DNA of 36,660 nt from a bacterium (GTDB lineage Bacteria; Patescibacteriota; Andersenbacteria; UBA10190; CAIZMI01): assembly GCA_030647555.1 (NCBI GenBank), contig JAUSJG010000004.1, forward strand, positions 1 to 36,660. The letters run 5' to 3'. A program made the position numbers and the translations under genes. The notes beneath the pieces were generated by a model that was not told the DNA's origin, did not search any database, and saw only the letters and a list, made by a program, of their open reading frames with translations. Position 1 is the first letter of the stretch; every line of letters starts with the position of its first letter. Shown one piece after another: positions 6,019 through 25,399 of this stretch.

Positions 6019-6567
6019 TTATATCGTTGCTTTCCGCAACGAGAAATCTAATTTTACGACCTTAACTTTCTTCGCTTTTGGCACGAAGATTTTTTTACTG
6101 GTTGTTTCGTAGCCTCTTCTGGAACAAAATACGGTATAATTTCCCGGTTGTAAAAGAATAAAGAATAAACCGGAATTGTCGGTAATACGTACCTGGACAA
6201 ATCTGTCTCCGGAAGCGACGCGAATCGTTGCTATGTCTAAAGGTTGACCGGTAGAAGCGTCAACAACAGTGCCTGTTTGTTTTCGACGTCTCAACATTTG
6301 AATTGTTTTGTAACCAAAAACGATAACATAAAGACATTCAAAAATAATGTTGAGTGTCGAGGGTTCATTAACCAAAAAATATGTATTAAGGAACACACCC
6401 AGAATCAAAAAAGGAAAGCTGTTTATATCAAGCCATTCTATGAATTTGGAATACGAGTGTATTATAAAATGCTGGAATGGTGTTCTTTTGTTTTCACGAT
6501 CCATGAGAACAAACATACGTGGCAAAACCTTACTTTCAGTCTCGTTTTTGATTGGTTGATCAACCAT
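6019..6567 (-). CDS. Membrane protein with C-terminal carboxypeptidase-regulatory-like domain
   Basis: This 182-residue protein has two hydrophobic segments (about residues 49-66 and 70-90, FPFLILGVFLNTYFLV and IIFECLYVIVFGY). A basic stretch (RRRKQ) and a small beta-sandwich domain at 97-182 follow: GTVVDASTGQPLDIATIRV, DNSGLFFILLQPGNYTV, RRGYETTSKKI. This is the carboxypeptidase regulatory-like / Cna-B-type repeat signature, usually an adhesion or scaffold module. The basic stretch suggests that the domain may be cytoplasmic. It overlaps the upstream gene by eight bases (ATGGTTGA), so the pair is translationally coupled. Confidence 0.75.
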   Translation of the reverse strand: MVDQPIKNETESKVLPRMFVLMDRENKRTPFQHFIIHSYSKFIEWLDINSFPFLILGVFLNTYFLVNEPSTLNIIFECLYVIVFGYKTIQMLRRRKQTGTVVDASTGQPLDIATIRVASGDRFVQVRITDNSGLFFILLQPGNYTVFCSRRGYETTSKKIFVPKAKKVKVVKLDFSLRKATI

Positions 6568-7636
6568 TGAGATTCATATTAGAGCGTTTAAAGTTAATTA
6601 ATCCGGAACGATATATAAATTCACCGGATTGCATTGCAAACATTGGTTCTTCAACGGAAGGGAAAATATAGCCCGGTTTTTGAACCACGAACTTGTATTC
6701 ACCTTGTTGCAATAAATCACCGGCATTTCCCGTTTTAGAATCACTTATCCATGTGGCACGAACTTTTCCGTCGGGTGAAAAAATATTGATAATAGCTCCG
6801 CCAACAGGTTTGCCTGTTACGGCGTCGATGACTTTTACCCAGTGCTCGGGACGCCGACGGTCTGTTACAAAAATGGCCGAAGAAATACTAAATAATGAAA
6901 AGGCAATCGGTATCATACCAACAACAGGGATCGCCATTACAATCGCCTTTATTCCCTTACCCAGAATAGTTTTGCTACAAGCCGCGATGGCGCCGGAACC
7001 GGAACTGTTAAAATCATCATCCGTATTAAAAGAGGTTGTGGTTGAAGTTGTGGGAGAACCGGATGGCTCCGGGGACGGCTCGGCTGTTGCACTTGGAGTA
7101 AGTGTAGATAGTGGTTCAACCACAGGAGAAGGAGAAGGGGTGGGGGTGGCTAAAATGTCCCGGCAAACTACAACCTTTCTCTCTTTTTCATATTTACCCG
7201 TAACATCATACCCGACGCTATTTGCCTCAAAGGTTGTTCGAATGATAAAAGATGAACAAATATTGGTGCCCCCAGCGCGCCCTTCTTTTTCAAAATCCAG
7301 AGGAATTTTGACGTCAAATTCTTGAAGATGCGTTTGATCGATGGGGTTGATGTGTTGGATAATCGTGGGATCGATAGTTTTGTCTTTTGATGTGGTAATA
7401 ATTTGTGTTCGTAACCCACTCTTAAAAAACTCATGATAAATTGATTCATTAAGCTCAATTCGCATATTTAATATTTGGCCGTAATTGGAGTTTATATTGC
7501 CAATGGGCTCTGTTTCGGATTTTTCGAGGATTTTTATTGCCGAAAAAGCATCCATCCAGGTGGTAGCTCTTGCTTGTGGCGCGATTAAAATAGCAGTTGA
7601 TATCAGTATTCCAAACCCTATTTTACCTATTTTCAT
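6560..7636 (-). CDS. Exported membrane protein with Pro/Ser/Thr linker and carboxypeptidase-regulatory-like domain
   Basis: This 358-residue protein starts with a signal peptide (ILISTAILIAPQARA, cut near residue 25). An N-terminal domain of about 140 residues follows, then a low-complexity P/S/T/E linker (about 168-210), a hydrophobic segment near 235-262 (IVMAIPVVGMIPIAFSLFS) followed by DRRRPE, and a C-terminal domain with VIDAVTGKPVGGAIINI and LLQQGEYKFVVQKPGY. That domain matches the type in the downstream coupled gene. A minus-strand TACAAT six bases before the ATG suggests a leaderless transcript. The likely role is in the cell envelope; the N-terminal domain is unrecognised. Confidence 0.75.
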   Translation of the reverse strand: MKIGKIGFGILISTAILIAPQARATTWMDAFSAIKILEKSETEPIGNINSNYGQILNMRIELNESIYHEFFKSGLRTQIITTSKDKTIDPTIIQHINPIDQTHLQEFDVKIPLDFEKEGRAGGTNICSSFIIRTTFEANSVGYDVTGKYEKERKVVVCRDILATPTPSPSPVVEPLSTLTPSATAEPSPEPSGSPTTSTTTSFNTDDDFNSSGSGAIAACSKTILGKGIKAIVMAIPVVGMIPIAFSLFSISSAIFVTDRRRPEHWVKVIDAVTGKPVGGAIINIFSPDGKVRATWISDSKTGNAGDLLQQGEYKFVVQKPGYIFPSVEEPMFAMQSGEFIYRSGLINFKRSNMNLNG

Positions 7637-7642
7637 GATATT

Positions 7643-7648
7643 ATTGTA
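7643..7648 (-). promoter_or_regulatory. -10 box of the 6560-7636 gene
   Basis: On the minus strand TACAAT lies six bases before the ATG at 7636. This matches the leaderless spacing seen repeatedly in this window. Confidence 0.6.
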
Positions 7649-7699
7649 CTAAACTTACTGTAAAGCGTCCAAATTAATACAAACGTAACTTTTGAGTAC

Positions 7700-7884
7700 T
7701 TAGGACTTGGTAATTAATAAACGCTTCATCTTATGTTCAATCCATCTCCAAATACAACTGCTTCTCAATCAAAAATTTTTCAACGTACGTTAAGTACGTC
7801 TCAAAATTTTGTTCAATCAAAGACAGTCGTCTTTGAAGCGCATTGAACATAATATTAAAGCGTTTATTAATTACCAAGCCCTAA
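7700..7884. repeat. Giant-hairpin element, copy A
   Basis: This 185-bp imperfect palindrome has outer arms of 27 nt (7700-7726 with 7858-7884) with one mismatch, beginning TTAGGACTTGG and ending CCAAGCCCTAA. Inner arms of about 60 nt are partly complementary, and the tip is ACGTAC-GTTAA-GTACGT. The core blocks CATCTTATGTTCAAT, ACTGCTTCTCAATCA and AGCGCATTGAACATAAT recur in copies B and C. It fills the divergent intergenic region, and its last base is the A of the ATG of the DUF4012 gene. Confidence 0.9.
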
Positions 7885-9725
7885 TGAAATTAAATAAAAA
7901 AACTATCATATTAGTGTTGTTGGGATTCCTATTAATATTGATGGTTGGTTTTTTTGTACTAAAATTACGCGCCGTGTATGGAGATGTACAGGGAGCAGTT
8001 AGTGCAAAGAGTGAACTTCTGTCCGCTATTAATTCTAAAGATACAAAGCGTGTCAAAATAGCAATTATCACAACAAGGGAAGCCGTCACCAAGGTTGATG
8101 AGGATTTAAACATTTTTCGCTATTTTGCTTTTGTTCCAAGGGTAAAAAGGGAAATGAATACGGCAAAAGATGTAATCTTGCAAACAAACTATTTGCTGGA
8201 TTCAGCCAGTCTGGCAATCAAAATTATTAATGAATCGGGGGTGGATGTTATATCGCCAAATATGGATGTGACGAGCGCGGAAGCGTTGAAAAAAATTGAT
8301 ACCGCTCTTGTAAACAATAAATCGGATATGCAAAAATTGTTGGAGCGCGGGGATAAAATTATTGTTAATAAAGTCGCGAGTAGCAGTTTTCGGCAAATCA
8401 GATCCCTACACGAACAAATTACGGGTTATTCAAAAATAGCTCAACAGGTGGAAAGATTGATTATAACCACAGAAGATGGTACGGCTACTCTTTTGGGTTT
8501 ACGCGGTGAAAAAAAATACTTATTAATGTTTGAAAACAGTGATGAGCTTCGTCCTGGTGGTGGCTTGATTTCAACTTATGGTTTAATCACTCTAAAAGAC
8601 GGACAAACATCCAATCTTTTCATCGACCATGTTCAAAATTTGAAACTTTTTTATACTACGCCGATTGAACTTAATCCCGACCCAATTCAGCAAACAATGC
8701 GACACCAGAAGAATTTATATATTTACGATGCCAATTGGTTGGGAGATCCCAACGAATGGTTGGACAAAATTTTTCGTTCTTGGAATGCCCAAAAACCGCT
8801 TGTCGATGGGATAATAGTAATGAGTACGAAGATATTGGAAGATGTTGTACGGCGATACGAACCGCTTCGATTGCCTGGAACAAATGAAGAATTTCGCGCG
8901 GATGACATAGTCGCTTCCTTGGATTACAACCTTGATGTACAGCATGGTCTTTATGATGTTAGTAAATATAAGGTTTTGGGCCCCCTGGTCGACGAATTGC
9001 TGAAAAATATTAAGTCTTCAAAGCCTACGCAACTTAAAGAAATTTTAGTGAACGCGAAAAAACGTTTTCAATCACGCGATCTTTTATTTTATACAAAGGA
9101 TGAAATTGTAAATGATGCGTTAAAAAACAATGGCATTCAAAACGAAATCACTGTGCCGGCCGGTGACGAGTTTTACGCGCTGGGGGCTAACTTGGGAAGC
9201 GGTAAGGCCGATGGACGAATGAAACGCTCGCTTGCGATGCGCGTTTATGCTCAAGAAATTTATCCGGCAACTTCGGCTACAATTACGCAAGATTACACCG
9301 CGGGTGTTGATGATTTTCGTGCCAGTGGATATTATGGATATCTCCGTTTCTTTTTACCTCTTGGAAGCAAGCTTGGTGCTTTTGATAATTTTAACTTGGT
9401 CGAAGATGAAAATATAATAGAGGCAGGGCGACAGGTTTACGGTAACTATTTCAGTGTTGCCACGGGAACAAAAAAAGACGTCGCGATTACATACGCGTTG
9501 GCCGAGAGCGTTGCCAAGCAAATTAAAGCTGGAAATTATTCGTTAACTCTGCGCAAGCAAGGTGGCGTAGAAATGCCGTTTGAGGTGAAAATAAATATTC
9601 CCGATAGTTGGAAAAATCCGGTAATTACGACATCCGACGGAACAACCGAATTTACAAAAAACCAAAGCACGGTCACATGGAAGGGGATATTAACAAAGGA
9701 TATGCAAATCGAAATTAAAAAATAG
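7884..9725 (+). CDS. DUF4012 domain-containing membrane protein
   Basis: This 613-residue protein is anchored by one N-terminal membrane helix (about residues 5-25, IILVLLGFLLILMVGFFVL). A helical region follows and then the DUF4012 domain, whose hallmark YLLMFENSDELRPGGGLIS is visible at about residues 213-231. DUF4012 proteins are common in CPR and Chloroflexi-like bacteria; their function is not established, although a cell-surface role is usual. The start is ATG 7884, where the hydrophobic anchor begins; the longer frame from 7809 runs inside the giant hairpin. Promoter elements, if any, must lie in the hairpin's right arm. Confidence 0.88.
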   Translation: MKLNKKTIILVLLGFLLILMVGFFVLKLRAVYGDVQGAVSAKSELLSAINSKDTKRVKIAIITTREAVTKVDEDLNIFRYFAFVPRVKREMNTAKDVILQTNYLLDSASLAIKIINESGVDVISPNMDVTSAEALKKIDTALVNNKSDMQKLLERGDKIIVNKVASSSFRQIRSLHEQITGYSKIAQQVERLIITTEDGTATLLGLRGEKKYLLMFENSDELRPGGGLISTYGLITLKDGQTSNLFIDHVQNLKLFYTTPIELNPDPIQQTMRHQKNLYIYDANWLGDPNEWLDKIFRSWNAQKPLVDGIIVMSTKILEDVVRRYEPLRLPGTNEEFRADDIVASLDYNLDVQHGLYDVSKYKVLGPLVDELLKNIKSSKPTQLKEILVNAKKRFQSRDLLFYTKDEIVNDALKNNGIQNEITVPAGDEFYALGANLGSGKADGRMKRSLAMRVYAQEIYPATSATITQDYTAGVDDFRASGYYGYLRFFLPLGSKLGAFDNFNLVEDENIIEAGRQVYGNYFSVATGTKKDVAITYALAESVAKQIKAGNYSLTLRKQGGVEMPFEVKINIPDSWKNPVITTSDGTTEFTKNQSTVTWKGILTKDMQIEIKK

Positions 9726-15680: not shown

Positions 15681-16631
15681 ATGAAATTTTTTCGAATTAA
15701 ATTTTTTGTTGGCACACTAGTTATTTTTTTGCTTCTGGGTTTTAGCTATCGCTACAGAGGAGATATGGTTCGTATTTTGCCACCGACAGGATTTCTAAAC
15801 CAAGCACCCTGCCAAAAGCCGATCACATATTCTATCGCAAACATCGACCCGCGTTTCGGTTTAACGGAAGCGGAATTATTGAACATTGTGAAACAATCAG
15901 AAGAAATATGGGAATCGCCGATCAATAAACAGTTATTTGAATATTCACCCATGGGAAATTTAAAAATAAATCTCATCTACGACAATCGGCAGGGAGTCAT
16001 AGACTCGTTGAGAAAAATAGGAACATCTATCAGCGACGACCAGTCTGCATATAACATAATAAAAACTAAGTACGATTCACTTGTTGTCTCGTACGACAAA
16101 GCAAAAGCGCAACTGGAAGTCTTAATCGCGACCTATAACGCAGACAAAAGTGCTTATGAGAGCGACGTTATTTATTGGAACAGTCGAGGTGGGGCACCAA
16201 AAGCGGAACATGACGCGCTGGAGCAGAGAAGAGTTGCTTTGAATAATCAAGTTGCAAAAATTAATCAAACCGAAGACTCTTTCAATGGAATAGTTGAAAA
16301 CATTAATTCAACAAGAACAGAACTCAACAAATTGGCTGCCACGCTGAATATTCAGGTAAACACATACAACAACGTTGGTTCATCAAACGGCAAGGAATTT
16401 GGTGAGGGTGAATACGTAAAAGACGCAAGCGGAACGGCAATTAATATTTTCCAATTTGACGATAAGAATCAGCTTGAGATAGTTCTCGCTCATGAACTTG
16501 GACACGCGCTGGGACTGGCGCACGTTGATAATTCCAAAGCCATTATGTTTTACCTGATCAACAAGAGTATAGAAAAAAAATTAACAAAAGAAGATCTCGC
16601 AGCACTGGTAAAAGTGTGCGGGGGTAAGTAG
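15681..16631 (+). CDS. Membrane-anchored matrixin-like zinc metalloprotease
   Basis: This 316-residue protein has an N-terminal anchor (about residues 7-22, KFFVGTLVIFLLLGFSY), then a domain with an IDPRFGLTEAE segment. A long helical coiled coil follows at about 110-235, and then the catalytic site HELGHALGLAH (about 271-281) with a nearby Met (AIMFYL), which fits the metzincin Met-turn. HExxHxxGxxH binds the catalytic zinc. The enzyme would act outside the membrane, cutting envelope or external proteins. The coiled coil inserted inside a matrixin-type frame is unusual. The substrate cannot be deduced. Confidence 0.85.
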   Translation: MKFFRIKFFVGTLVIFLLLGFSYRYRGDMVRILPPTGFLNQAPCQKPITYSIANIDPRFGLTEAELLNIVKQSEEIWESPINKQLFEYSPMGNLKINLIYDNRQGVIDSLRKIGTSISDDQSAYNIIKTKYDSLVVSYDKAKAQLEVLIATYNADKSAYESDVIYWNSRGGAPKAEHDALEQRRVALNNQVAKINQTEDSFNGIVENINSTRTELNKLAATLNIQVNTYNNVGSSNGKEFGEGEYVKDASGTAINIFQFDDKNQLEIVLAHELGHALGLAHVDNSKAIMFYLINKSIEKKLTKEDLAALVKVCGGK

Positions 16632-20486: not shown

Positions 20487-20501
20487 TTTTTCCGTTCGTG
20501 A

Positions 20502-20507
20502 TATGAT
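20502..20507 (+). promoter_or_regulatory. -10 box of the 1607-residue protein gene
   Basis: TATGAT ends six bases before ATG 20514, consistent with leaderless transcription from the short gap after the BaiN-like gene. Confidence 0.55.
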
Positions 20508-20513
20508 TATCGC

Positions 20514-23500
20514 ATGGGAATGGAAGGAATTAAAATAAACGTTGCTGAGGCAAATATTCAGGATCATGAACAAACAGGTGTTCAAGAAAAAAAGACCACA
20601 GAAGCGCCAGTTGAAGATTCGGGCATAAAAATTGAAAAGGAGTTGAGGTCTGGATTATTACCGGAGGCATTAAGGGAATCGTGGAAAATCGTTGATCCTG
20701 AATCGCAAGAAGCGAAAATATTTCAAGAAGAGGCGGAAAAAATTGCCATCGCTCTGTATACACCGGTACCGGGTGAGGAACATTTGCCATATTATGAGTA
20801 TCGACATCACGATTTCCAAAACAACCCTGTGCGTTTTTTGCTGTCAAAGGACGAATCGCCAAACGCTTGGTTTGTGGACAAGAGTGATCCGCCAATAATT
20901 GTTTTATCGCAGGCGCTTTTTACCAAGAAAGACGAAAATGGCGAAGCGTATATTGAATCGCCCGACGATTTAGCGGCGATTATAGGCCACGAATTGACAC
21001 ACATGAAAATGCGAGAAGTGTATGGTGCTATCTCCAACTCCAAAGCGGAAGAAGGTTTTGCGTACTCTATGCCTCTTGTGTTAATGCGGGACCACGGAAA
21101 ATCAATTGGCTTGAATCCGGAAAACGTGTTTCGTAAAAAAGGTGGCGGGGTGGGCGTCTATGAAAGACTCTGCAGAGAGCAAAAGAAAAATTTCGATTGG
21201 AATTCCTATTTTGATGTACATCCCGCTCCTGATAATATTCATTCGATAGTTTCCGATACATTGGCGTACCTTAAAAAAGAAAGAGGCACGTTGGAGCCCG
21301 ATGTCCCGGCCGTTAAACCGTATGGTCGTGATAGCCGAATTATTCAATCGGTAACACGCGCGGAATTTCATTCTTTTGTTGAATCGCGACTAGAAAAGTT
21401 TCCTGGCTATGGGGAAGCCGATTTGTTACAGAAAGCAGAAATTCTTGATTCGATTTTGGGTGAAATGGGGTCGAATAAATATGATGTTCGCGTTGGTGAT
21501 GTTGTTTCGGAAATTCGAAGATTACGGCCCCAAGTAAAAACTGCGGAGGACAAGCGGATAATCAGTCGCTTTGCGGATCGTGTATTAAAGATTGGCGAAG
21601 GTGGTGATATTAAATCAATGAAACGTCTTTACGGGGCGTTATGCAGTACTGTAAATCAAAAGTTTGAAAAAACTCCACTAGGAAGATTTAGAACAATTTC
21701 GCGTGAAATCAGAGAATTTATAAATGCCACGAATGATGGTTCAAATGCCGATATGTTGGCCACGGCCAGGAAATTTGTGGGTTTACTGGAGGATTCAAAC
21801 GGAAACACAATCGAGCCGTTTTTGGACTCTCCATATGGTCGTTCTTTTTTGGCAGAATTGGCTTGGCCACAATTTGCATTTCCAAGTGAAGAAAAAATTG
21901 CGCGTGCCCGCAGAAGAGGAGAGGGAGTCCAAGTTGAGTGGGACTCGTTAAGAAAAATTGCGGGGGAAAAAGAAGAGGTGGCAAAAGCTTGCGCGTATTT
22001 GGGTTTGATAAGGGATCCGTTTATTCTGGCCGGTGCAATGAAACATGAAGAGCTTGCATTGAGAATAATTGGTAGCCGACTTGGGGCGAAACGGCAATTC
22101 GGTTCTATCGCGGAAATATCGTCCGGTCCAAATGATGGTCACAATAAACTTAATTCAATCCGGTTTGACGCGGATGGGCTTGCAATTGGTATTAGAAGTG
22201 AGTCAAGCGATTCCTTGATGGATAAATATGTAACCAAAGCGTTAGAAGAATGGATTGAGGGTGAATTTATTCGATCCTCTGATGATCCTGAAGCGCAACA
22301 AGAATTTATGGATAAGCTTTCGGCTGTTGAAATGATGGTATCCAAAAAACAACTGATTGGATTAGATTCCATGGAAAAGAATTTTCCGCTTTTTCTGCGT
22401 GTCAACGAGGCCTTATGGCAGGAAAGAACGGCAATTAATTTTTTTCTGAAGCGATTGAACGATCTGGGGCAAAACGGCACAATACTTGCGCGAGAGTTTT
22501 TTATGTCGGAGGTTGGGGAAAGAGTGATTCAGCAATCATTCGGTTCCTTTCCTGTTGTTGGTTATTCGACAAAAAATGAAATGGAGATGGACGAAAAGGG
22601 AGAATATCTTAATGCGAATCCTTACCTTGTTTTTATATCCAAGAGCGACAGTATTTTTTCGGCTACCGAGAAATATGAGTTATTTAATAAATATATTTTT
22701 ACAAACAGAACCGGTGTTGAGGGTACGGAGTATGAAAATTTTCTAGTAGTCTGCAGTGAGCTCGATGATGAAAAGGCCAAATATTTTTGTGATTTTATAA
22801 GGCCGGTTCTTGCGGAAAACGGATTTGTTGATGATGTTGGTTCCTGGGGTGGATTAATAAAAAAAATGGGTCAAATGGGGAAAGATGACGCGTTCGGGTT
22901 GGAACAAGCTTATCTTTATAATAAATCGTTTGGTTGGTTGCAAGATAAAAATTGTCCGACCGTCCGACAGGCGGCAGATTTTCTTTCAATGGTACCGTCT
23001 GAATATATAAAAAATTCAACTTTTCAAATCTCGCTACAGGAGCAATTGCAGGAAAGATCCGGGCGTTTTGCGTCCAAAGAAATGTCCAAAATGAACTTAG
23101 ATTCGGCAATTTCACTTTGGTATACGCTATCTCGGGCCGAGGTTATTTACCCCGATGTCGCGGATGCCATGCTTGCTAGTTTAATCGGAAGGATTGAGGC
23201 GCTTGGTTCCCAAGATGAAGTTCGTAAAATGTCATTAGCCGGCAAGCTTATGGAGGGTGGACACATTCAGGATCCGCAAATGCGAAAACAATTGATCGGA
23301 GTTTGGACAGAGAGTGTTCGTGAGCTAAATGGATTAGACGAAAATGAACGTGGGTACGTGGATTCCATAACCATGCTTGCAGACAACTTAAAGACCAACA
23401 AGCTGGATCGCGCGGAAATTCTTCAAACGTTGGCGAGTACTCTTCAGGCACAGGATGTTCTTTGCAGAAAATTGAGAAGTCGCGCTTATGAGGTAACCGG

Positions 23501-25337
23501 CGAATCGCTGACTTCTACAATAAATTATCAAATATTTACTGACGCAGGGATAAATATGATCAAAAAATCTACCGCTAATCGTACCGCAACGCTGGATTTT
23601 TTGATCGCTCCTTTAACAAAACAGTCGGTTGATGCCTATGTTGATCGTTGCGCGTATTCGTTGGAATTTACCGGTCTTTCGTCGGCCGGATCCGGCGGCG
23701 CGTTCTCGATCAGTTCAACATTAGAGGAAGATCAGGGTCAGAAAGAATATCGTGAGCAACTGGCGAAATCATCATTGCGCAAGTTTTATGAAAATTTTTG
23801 GGCGGCGCCGATCGATGGGCGGGCGATTCTTGCGCGGGAGTTGTTGATTTCCCCGGACGAATCGTTGGATACAGTAGATGCCGAAACGTTCGATTACGCC
23901 GTTTCGAAGGTGTTTTCGGGGGAAGATAAGAATGAGAAGGAAGCCCGGATATTTTTACGTTCATATATTGACGCCCTCCCAAAATATCAACAGCATCTTT
24001 GTCTAGGTGCTATAATGTCTGCCGCCGAACGTCGTGGAAAAGGTGAAGTGAGAATGGGGGAAGCACTCGCGTATTTTTTGGAAAACATGGGTCCGGCGGA
24101 AACGAAGTTTGGGCAGGCCGCGCAAAGCCATCCGCAGGTTCCGGAAGATATTCGGACTGACTTGCGGCGTCTGAAATTTCGCGCCGGAGAGCCGATGCGG
24201 TGGGACATCACTCAATGGGTGGAAGAAACGAGAGATGATTTGGAACAAAATTATTTAAATGAAACAGGTAATGCCGCAACAATAACGCATATTGGCGACA
24301 TGATTGGCTCGGGTTCGATTAATGTGGTGGTGGATTTGGATATGTCGGATGGAAATTCCTACGTTCTTTCTTTACTAAGGCCAAATGTCGAAGCAAAAGG
24401 ACATTCGGGCTTCGAAACAATGCGGAGAATGGCTGACAATTTAAGCGTTCAGAATGATTCACGTGACGCGGTTCAAACGGTTCGTGAACTGATCGATCAG
24501 GCAAACGATCGATTGGTAATTGAGGTTGATTGCGGGTTAGCCAAGCAGCAATACTCAAACGCGAAGCAACTTTACGCCGGCACATCCGTTGTTATGGATG
24601 GAGAAAAATTTGAGTTTGATTCGGCGGATGTTGTTGTGGCAGGAAAAAAATATTTTATGATGCAAAAAATGCAGGGTCAGCATTATATTGAATTGCCGGA
24701 AACAACCGATGTTGAGCGCCAAGCAAAAAAGAAGATAGCACAGGCAATTCTGACTGTGGAGCTTAATAATAAATTAAGGGGTAAGTTTGATCCCGACAGG
24801 CACGGTGGAAATGTTCGTGTGTCAGAGGATTTGCATAAGATTTCCCATTTTGATTTTAAGTCTATGGCGGTCAATGAGTGGGCGGATGAGGGACTGAAGG
24901 AGTTTGCGAACCTACTGATTGGAGCGTTAACGGAAGAAAAAACCGCTGAGGAATTTTTTAATGATTTGGTTGATCAGGAACGCGTTATCAGGGAAGAGTA
25001 CGCGGCGTCGGGAAGAAGTTTGGATCCGTTTGTCGCTGAAGTTTCAAAGGGGCTTCTGACCGATGGCGAATATGCCCAAATGCTTGATAAGGAAGATTTA
25101 ATGCGCGTTGTGGTATCCGCGTTGCTTGCAGGGATTCATCCGGTTTTGAAAGAATCGTTATTGGATGCCGTTGAAGATCGTATCCCGGAACCGTTTAAGG
25201 GCGTATATTTTGAGCGAATTCGCCCGGAACTAGAGACCGCTTTGGAAACGGGCGAATTGACGCAAAATCTCTCTGATTTTTTACCTTATCGTGGAGGTAA
25301 TGACGCGTTAATCAAAATCAATAGGTCATTCCCCTAA
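20514..25337 (+). CDS. Giant protein: N-terminal M48-like metallopeptidase domain and C-terminal kinase-like domain
   Basis: This 1607-residue cytoplasmic-looking protein has no signal peptide. Near the N-terminus, LAAIIGHELTHMKMREVYG (HELTH at 159-163) and the following KAEEGFAYSM (Glu179/180) look like the HExxH and third-ligand Glu of M48-type zinc peptidases. A long helical middle (about 250-1230) has no family I recognise. At about 1255-1480 a kinase-like order appears: HIGDMIGSGSINVVVDL (glycine loop), YVLSLLRPNV (beta-3 strand), DPDRHGGNVRV (about 1426) and HFDFKSM (about 1445). This recalls UbiB/AarF-type atypical kinases, but the expected beta-3 Lys is replaced by Ser. The fusion appears intact in one frame. 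Confidence 0.85.
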   Translation: MGMEGIKINVAEANIQDHEQTGVQEKKTTEAPVEDSGIKIEKELRSGLLPEALRESWKIVDPESQEAKIFQEEAEKIAIALYTPVPGEEHLPYYEYRHHDFQNNPVRFLLSKDESPNAWFVDKSDPPIIVLSQALFTKKDENGEAYIESPDDLAAIIGHELTHMKMREVYGAISNSKAEEGFAYSMPLVLMRDHGKSIGLNPENVFRKKGGGVGVYERLCREQKKNFDWNSYFDVHPAPDNIHSIVSDTLAYLKKERGTLEPDVPAVKPYGRDSRIIQSVTRAEFHSFVESRLEKFPGYGEADLLQKAEILDSILGEMGSNKYDVRVGDVVSEIRRLRPQVKTAEDKRIISRFADRVLKIGEGGDIKSMKRLYGALCSTVNQKFEKTPLGRFRTISREIREFINATNDGSNADMLATARKFVGLLEDSNGNTIEPFLDSPYGRSFLAELAWPQFAFPSEEKIARARRRGEGVQVEWDSLRKIAGEKEEVAKACAYLGLIRDPFILAGAMKHEELALRIIGSRLGAKRQFGSIAEISSGPNDGHNKLNSIRFDADGLAIGIRSESSDSLMDKYVTKALEEWIEGEFIRSSDDPEAQQEFMDKLSAVEMMVSKKQLIGLDSMEKNFPLFLRVNEALWQERTAINFFLKRLNDLGQNGTILAREFFMSEVGERVIQQSFGSFPVVGYSTKNEMEMDEKGEYLNANPYLVFISKSDSIFSATEKYELFNKYIFTNRTGVEGTEYENFLVVCSELDDEKAKYFCDFIRPVLAENGFVDDVGSWGGLIKKMGQMGKDDAFGLEQAYLYNKSFGWLQDKNCPTVRQAADFLSMVPSEYIKNSTFQISLQEQLQERSGRFASKEMSKMNLDSAISLWYTLSRAEVIYPDVADAMLASLIGRIEALGSQDEVRKMSLAGKLMEGGHIQDPQMRKQLIGVWTESVRELNGLDENERGYVDSITMLADNLKTNKLDRAEILQTLASTLQAQDVLCRKLRSRAYEVTGESLTSTINYQIFTDAGINMIKKSTANRTATLDFLIAPLTKQSVDAYVDRCAYSLEFTGLSSAGSGGAFSISSTLEEDQGQKEYREQLAKSSLRKFYENFWAAPIDGRAILARELLISPDESLDTVDAETFDYAVSKVFSGEDKNEKEARIFLRSYIDALPKYQQHLCLGAIMSAAERRGKGEVRMGEALAYFLENMGPAETKFGQAAQSHPQVPEDIRTDLRRLKFRAGEPMRWDITQWVEETRDDLEQNYLNETGNAATITHIGDMIGSGSINVVVDLDMSDGNSYVLSLLRPNVEAKGHSGFETMRRMADNLSVQNDSRDAVQTVRELIDQANDRLVIEVDCGLAKQQYSNAKQLYAGTSVVMDGEKFEFDSADVVVAGKKYFMMQKMQGQHYIELPETTDVERQAKKKIAQAILTVELNNKLRGKFDPDRHGGNVRVSEDLHKISHFDFKSMAVNEWADEGLKEFANLLIGALTEEKTAEEFFNDLVDQERVIREEYAASGRSLDPFVAEVSKGLLTDGEYAQMLDKEDLMRVVVSALLAGIHPVLKESLLDAVEDRIPEPFKGVYFERIRPELETALETGELTQNLSDFLPYRGGNDALIKINRSFP

Positions 25338-25399
25338 GTGGTAATGCGACCAATTTTGCAGTGTGAATATTGCGGATTGATATGTGATATATTTATCGT

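Follow-up and report, generated by a model that had tools for sequence, protein, structure and literature searches.

Organization of the 1607-residue protein

Can one bacterial gene join a zinc protease to a kinase-like domain, and could the two domains control each other? An earlier note raised this possibility for a locus in the window analysed here, a 36,660-nucleotide stretch of a Patescibacteria genome, in which it read a single unbroken frame at 20514-25337. The frame is open as claimed, running over 1607 codons from an ATG start to a TAA stop. The gene and the main parts of its product are as follows.

20514-25337, forward strand: single gene for the 1607-residue M48-scaffold-ABC1/UbiB protein (open frame; same domain order in homologues)
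20498-20513, forward strand: putative promoter, leaderless-looking, with TATGAT at 20502-20507 (consensus resemblance only)
20706-21263, forward strand: M48-type zincin domain, about residues 65-250 (Pfam PF01435 at residues 101-175)
21264-23771, forward strand: long middle scaffold, residues 251-1086, of no recognised family (no Pfam or NCBIfam match)
23772-24071, forward strand: pre-kinase region, residues 1087-1186, common to the family (hhalign of a nine-member profile)

Over the last ~560 residues, a homologue from a different family of the phylum is 38-39% identical, and the same domain order recurs in other genomes, so that the joining of the two domains goes beyond chance. In keeping with the initial reading that no known family lies between them, ~900 residues in the middle match no Pfam or NCBIfam family, and this part does not align with other family members. 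The nine-member profile aligned using hhalign with residues 1087-1450 (E 4.7e-10) and weakly with residues 105-165 around HExxH (E 2.4e-4).

The N-terminal domain carries an M48-type zinc site

The Pfam Peptidase_M48 model (PF01435) matches residues 101-175 with 25.2 bits against a curated cut-off of 20.3 (E 1.7e-5). Three motifs stand out within the domain.

20988-21002, forward strand: HELTH zinc-binding and catalytic motif, residues 159-163 (HExxH in 11 of 11 members with an N-terminus)
21048-21065, forward strand: EEGFAY, residues 179-184, with the third zinc ligand Glu180 (E..AD in the family; Asp replaced by Tyr184 here)
21216-21233, forward strand: VHPAPD, with His236-Pro237 of the M48 active-site plug HPX4R, Arg absent (motif definition, PMC7950410)

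The zinc site first recognized from HELTH and EEGFAYSM is thus borne out by a Pfam match above its cut-off, by Glu180 and by the HP of the plug, and the protein retains its three zinc ligands as well as the catalytic Glu160. The ligands are also largely conserved among homologues: all 11 N-termini of the giant family (as we call this protein and its relatives) have HExxH, most have the zinc Glu and nine have HP, with no recognisable HP motif in G507 and G168. HPX4R is complete in G226, G363, G073, G211, G608, G656, G030 and G683. In the 1607-residue protein the HPX4R Arg is missing and Tyr184 replaces the Asp of E..AD, so its protease could be weakened; other giants retain both residues in most cases.

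Comparison with solved structures reinforces the assignment, as a five-member family profile matches the 3c37 M48 peptidase (1.9e-13) and BepA (1.4e-6). BepA has a zinc site and plug composed of H136, H140, E201, H246 and HPX4R, and its HP plug gates proteolysis alongside a helical TPR partner domain (PMC7950410). The 1607-residue protein resembles BepA and Geobacter sulfurreducens 3c37 in its HExxH, Glu ligand and HP plug. Unlike these peptidases, it has no TPR family match, its hydrophobic stretches are too short to form a clear membrane helix and no hydrophobic signal segment is obvious. It also departs from them at the Arg of the plug and the Asp of E..AD, and in this family the M48 domain is either fused to an ABC1 domain or linked to one in an operon. 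An AlphaFold model of the M48 part from the single sequence was uninformative (pLDDT 43.6), and a fold search with it was meaningless.

The C-terminal domain belongs to the ABC1/UbiB group

The Pfam ABC1 model (PF03109) matches residues 1264-1472 with 28.2 bits against a curated cut-off of 22.9 (E 1.3e-6), and the NCBIfam UbiB model TIGR01982 aligns from residue 1164 (E 8.9e-13) with 47.6 bits, far under its equivalog cut-off of 487.55. The motifs below were placed by alignment.

24102-24116, forward strand: TKFGQ, residues 1197-1201, the UbiB KxGQ motif (GPAETKFGQAAQSHPQVPED) with Lys1198 and Gln1201 (also within the TIGR01982 match)
24306-24320, forward strand: GSGSI nucleotide loop (A-rich in UbiB), with Gly1267 where ADCK3 has Ala339
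24363-24383, forward strand: beta-3 VLSLLRP, residues 1284-1290, Ser1286 replacing the lysine (ADCK3 Lys358)
24519-24545, forward strand: IEVDCGLAK, ExD kept (Glu1337, Asp1339) and Ala1343 at the alphaC Glu (ADCK3 Glu411)
24795-24812, forward strand: DRHGGN catalytic-loop motif, residues 1428-1433, with Asp1428 and Asn1433
24846-24860, forward strand: HFDFK metal-binding motif, residues 1445-1449, with Asp1447; the DFG Gly is Lys1449

The catalytic Asp1428 and Asn1433 and the metal-binding Asp1447 are all present, the last being the equivalent of ADCK3 Asp507. ADCK3 Lys358, Glu411 and Asp488 (numbering per PMC4718504) correspond to Ser1286, Ala1343 and Asp1428. In ADCK3, the KxGQ and ExD motifs occlude the active site and bind nucleotide (PMC4718504). 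The kinase-like character proposed for the C-terminus is upheld by both family matches, but not its start: since the UbiB-typical KxGQ lies at 1198-1201, the kinase-like part begins earlier than first stated. The nucleotide loop reads GSGS here. Of the other giants, 12 have GSAS or GAAS and G168 has GGGS; two stand-alone UbiBs have AAGS.

A profile built from six C-terminal domains, including those of the 1607-residue protein and G407, its closest relative, matches the solved structures 5yjz (2.5e-19), 7cy2 (1.4e-13) and COQ8A-type proteins (3e-6 to 9e-5); a profile of these two alone matched no solved ABC1 protein. The AlphaFold model of the kinase part, computed from a three-sequence alignment, is of low confidence (pLDDT 50.8, pTM 0.44). 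ADCK3/COQ8A and mycobacterial ABC1 proteins nevertheless occupy the first eleven PDB positions in a fold search with it (best E 5e-3), a result that is supporting only, given the low model confidence and low TM-scores. Sequence placement and fold search thus agree with the UbiB-like fold that had been suggested. The other initial suggestion, an AMPylase or SelO-like domain, is rejected, as searches of Pfam, NCBIfam, PDB sequences and PDB folds returned no such match. Kinship with PI3/PI4 kinases through DRHxxN was set aside as convergence, the KxGQ extension and the profile scores pointing to ABC1/UbiB.

The protein shares the KxGQ extension, ExD and the D/N/D residues with COQ8A/ADCK3, Rv3197, MSMEG_1954 and bacterial UbiB. 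It differs from these in that the module lies at the C-terminus of a giant chain that also comprises a protease and a scaffold of ~900 residues, and in that its branch has no counterpart of either Lys358 or Glu411 and reads DFK in place of DFG.

A family of fused and split giants in Patescibacteria

We scanned the phylum for ABC1 domains and then with family profiles, and found that the architecture recurs among other CPR genomes, with giant relatives in 13 other Patescibacteria: six fused, five split and two (G493 and G407) cut by contig edges. The fused proteins are those of G226 (1799 residues), G363 (1887), G073 (1911), G683 (1817), G030 (1965) and G168 (1651). M48 precedes ABC1 by Pfam in G226, G073 and G683 and by motifs in G363, G030 and G168, the M48 assignment of G030 and G168 being HExxH with surrounding motifs and not a Pfam match. 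Neighbouring M48 and ABC1 genes occur in the same order in G211, G608, G656, G507 and G605, with an ATGA overlap in G211 and G656 and gaps of 3-12 nt in the other three; the M48 half of G605 is cut by a contig edge and was counted as split without an M48 motif in sequence. Two subgroups of the family are homologous over their full length (1473 columns, E 2.5e-33).

In a maximum-likelihood tree, from which L009 and L010 were left out as wrong frames, the kinase-like domains of 13 of the 14 giants group in a single clade (support 100/97) that excludes 16 stand-alone UbiBs, a separation that distinguishes these giants from the latter. Placement of G168, outside this clade on a very long branch, is unsure. 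The 1607-residue protein and G407 are sisters (100/100) with a branch length of 3.07. A single ancestry of the kinase-like module in these 13 giants is thereby shown from sequence.

Used whole as a query, the 1607-residue protein found no close relative among 192 relatives or in the viral collection, and its N-terminus alone found nothing convincing (E 0.005). A profile of the 1607-residue protein and G407 run against 85,000 species genomes returned only the G407 record JAHJTR010000108.1. Across family members, no gene neighbourhood or partner gene is conserved. The open-access literature searched held nothing relevant on an M48-ABC1 fusion or on UbiB in CPR. Each of the two domain types is known. 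Neither that literature nor the libraries searched contained the joining of the two, the family in its fused and split forms or the lysine-less branch.

A proposed nucleotide-gated protease

The two modules, their residues and their repeated linkage, fused or adjacent, are demonstrated at the level of sequence; what we infer is that the protease is active, that nucleotide is bound and that the two are coupled. Repeated linkage of this kind, as fused or coupled genes, implies one functional unit, and the recurrence of the domains both as fusions and as adjacent, translationally coupled genes strengthens the idea that one domain controls the other. We tentatively favour a single gated machine comprising a soluble, plugged M48 protease, a scaffold and a nucleotide-binding UbiB-like module. 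The N-terminal zincin would cut proteins, with its own HP plug keeping it closed; the long scaffold would position the protease and probably recognise substrates; and the C-terminal module would bind nucleotide and change shape, thereby opening or closing the protease. Our best guess, by analogy with BepA and ADCK3, is that the nucleotide state of the UbiB-like module would set protease access via the scaffold.

A lysine-less branch within the family

The beta-3 lysine is replaced by Ser1286 in the 1607-residue protein and by Ala in G407, and the alphaC Glu by Ala in both. Every other giant and stand-alone UbiB that could be scored has the lysine, and those with an alignable alphaC have the Glu. 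The description of the domain as lysine-less therefore holds for this protein but extends only to its small branch, not to the family. At the position of the DFG Gly, the pair has Lys, G168 has Pro and the others have Gly.

The two proteins are 69% identical in the KxGQ segment and 61% in the catalytic-loop segment, compared with 39% overall (permutation p of 0.0005 and 0.002, respectively). That the pair is most alike in these segments favours retention of the nucleotide site over decay, a reading that two sequences make suggestive, not strong. We predict nucleotide binding in this branch since the Lys-Glu pair is lost but KxGQ, ExD, DRHGGN and Asp1447 are kept. Most likely, the module would still bind nucleotide as a sensor or use a moved lysine, and would not be a standard kinase. 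WNK kinases likewise miss the beta-3 lysine while their remaining catalytic residues stay (PMC4718504), as is the case in the 1607-residue protein. They belong to a different fold branch, however, and the candidate replacement here is Lys1449 (DFK) or Lys1198 (KxGQ) instead of a beta-2 lysine. It is rather improbable that the module is a working ATP-dependent one in which the HFDFK or KxGQ lysine would bind phosphate, WNK-like, and drive or gate the fused M48 protease.

Alternatively, the family may work as proposed while the protein of this branch serves as a scaffold or adaptor, with catalysis lost in one module or in both. In favour are the joint loss of the beta-3 Lys, the alphaC Glu and the DFG Gly, the further loss of the HPX4R Arg and E..AD Asp, and the long branch (3.07). 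On the other hand, the D/N/D metal- and base-type residues and KxGQ are kept within the segments most conserved relative to G407, as are the three zinc ligands and Glu160. We regard this explanation as unlikely.

The locus and further alternatives

The giant gene is sporadic, a single-gene insertion between genes for a BaiN-like flavoprotein and a NUDIX protein. In G001, a genome of the same genus, the corresponding genes (88% and 66% identical, respectively) adjoin with ~50 bp between them, leaving the site empty. The other 12 genomes of the class hold no relative, and no close relative was found within the genus, family or order. A 16-base block, GTGATATGATTATCGC (20498-20513), abuts the ATG of the giant gene and a similar one, GTGATATATTTATCGT (25384-25399), that of the next gene; the pair look like leaderless promoters or an insertion footprint.

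The sporadic occurrence, the very divergent middle and the large size would suit a conflict protein, that is, a defence factor or an effector against a host cell or competitors, with a sensor scaffold unleashing the protease. Against this, a defence library gave no match for the 1607-residue protein and only weak kinase-motif PD-T4-6 matches in two relatives, no defence or secretion genes adjoin the gene, a hydrophobic signal segment is not apparent, and the viral, phage and plasmid collections searched contain no relatives. We consider such a role quite unlikely.

It is very unlikely that the gated machine outlined above should instead be read with the ABC1/UbiB module as the enzyme, performing lipid- or quinone-type ATPase work as COQ8 does, and the M48 domain trimming or maturing it or its client. 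UbiB-type residues are intact in most members, and the closest solved structures are ABC1/COQ8 proteins, but all members with an N-terminus retain HExxH, the TIGR01982 score (47.6) is far under the equivalog cut-off (487.6) and quinone-pathway genes are absent from the neighbourhood.

Finally, a chance join of two genes by assembly or annotation has next to no probability and no point in its favour, being already refuted by relatives: the same fusion occurs in independent genomes, the closest relative, from another family, has the same pre-kinase linker, and the base composition of the gene equals that of its neighbours.

Implications and additional observations

The ABC1/UbiB group is of ancient origin and broad distribution, and what its proteins do biochemically is a matter of continuing debate. 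A family joined to a protease would offer a direct read-out, as nucleotide at the UbiB-like site either alters proteolysis or does not, and its lysine-less branch a natural test of which residues are truly needed for nucleotide binding in the superfamily. Small Patescibacteria genomes retain ~5-7 kb accessory machines that are absent from current family libraries.

Elsewhere in the window, a serine-recombinase-type protein is encoded at its left edge (177-1946), ~18 kb from the giant gene. A second zincin, at 15681-16631, is secreted-looking and has HELGHALGLAH, the extended HExxHxxGxxH zinc motif. Two neighbouring membrane proteins encoded on the minus strand (6019-7636) have a common carboxypeptidase-regulatory-like C-terminus (TGQPLDIATIRV and TGKPVGGAIINI).

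Other long proteins were seen in Patescibacteria. Proteins of ~800 residues combine PAP2, a protein-kinase-like domain and an LPG-synthase (MprF-type) membrane domain (L041:7830-10274; L044:8840-11206 and 6473-8836). Genome G158 encodes two giants of 1391 and 1367 residues with a protein-kinase domain in mid-protein (L038:9792-13964 and L039:6144-10244), and the neighbour of the second (L039:10352-14653) carries an HELKH motif.
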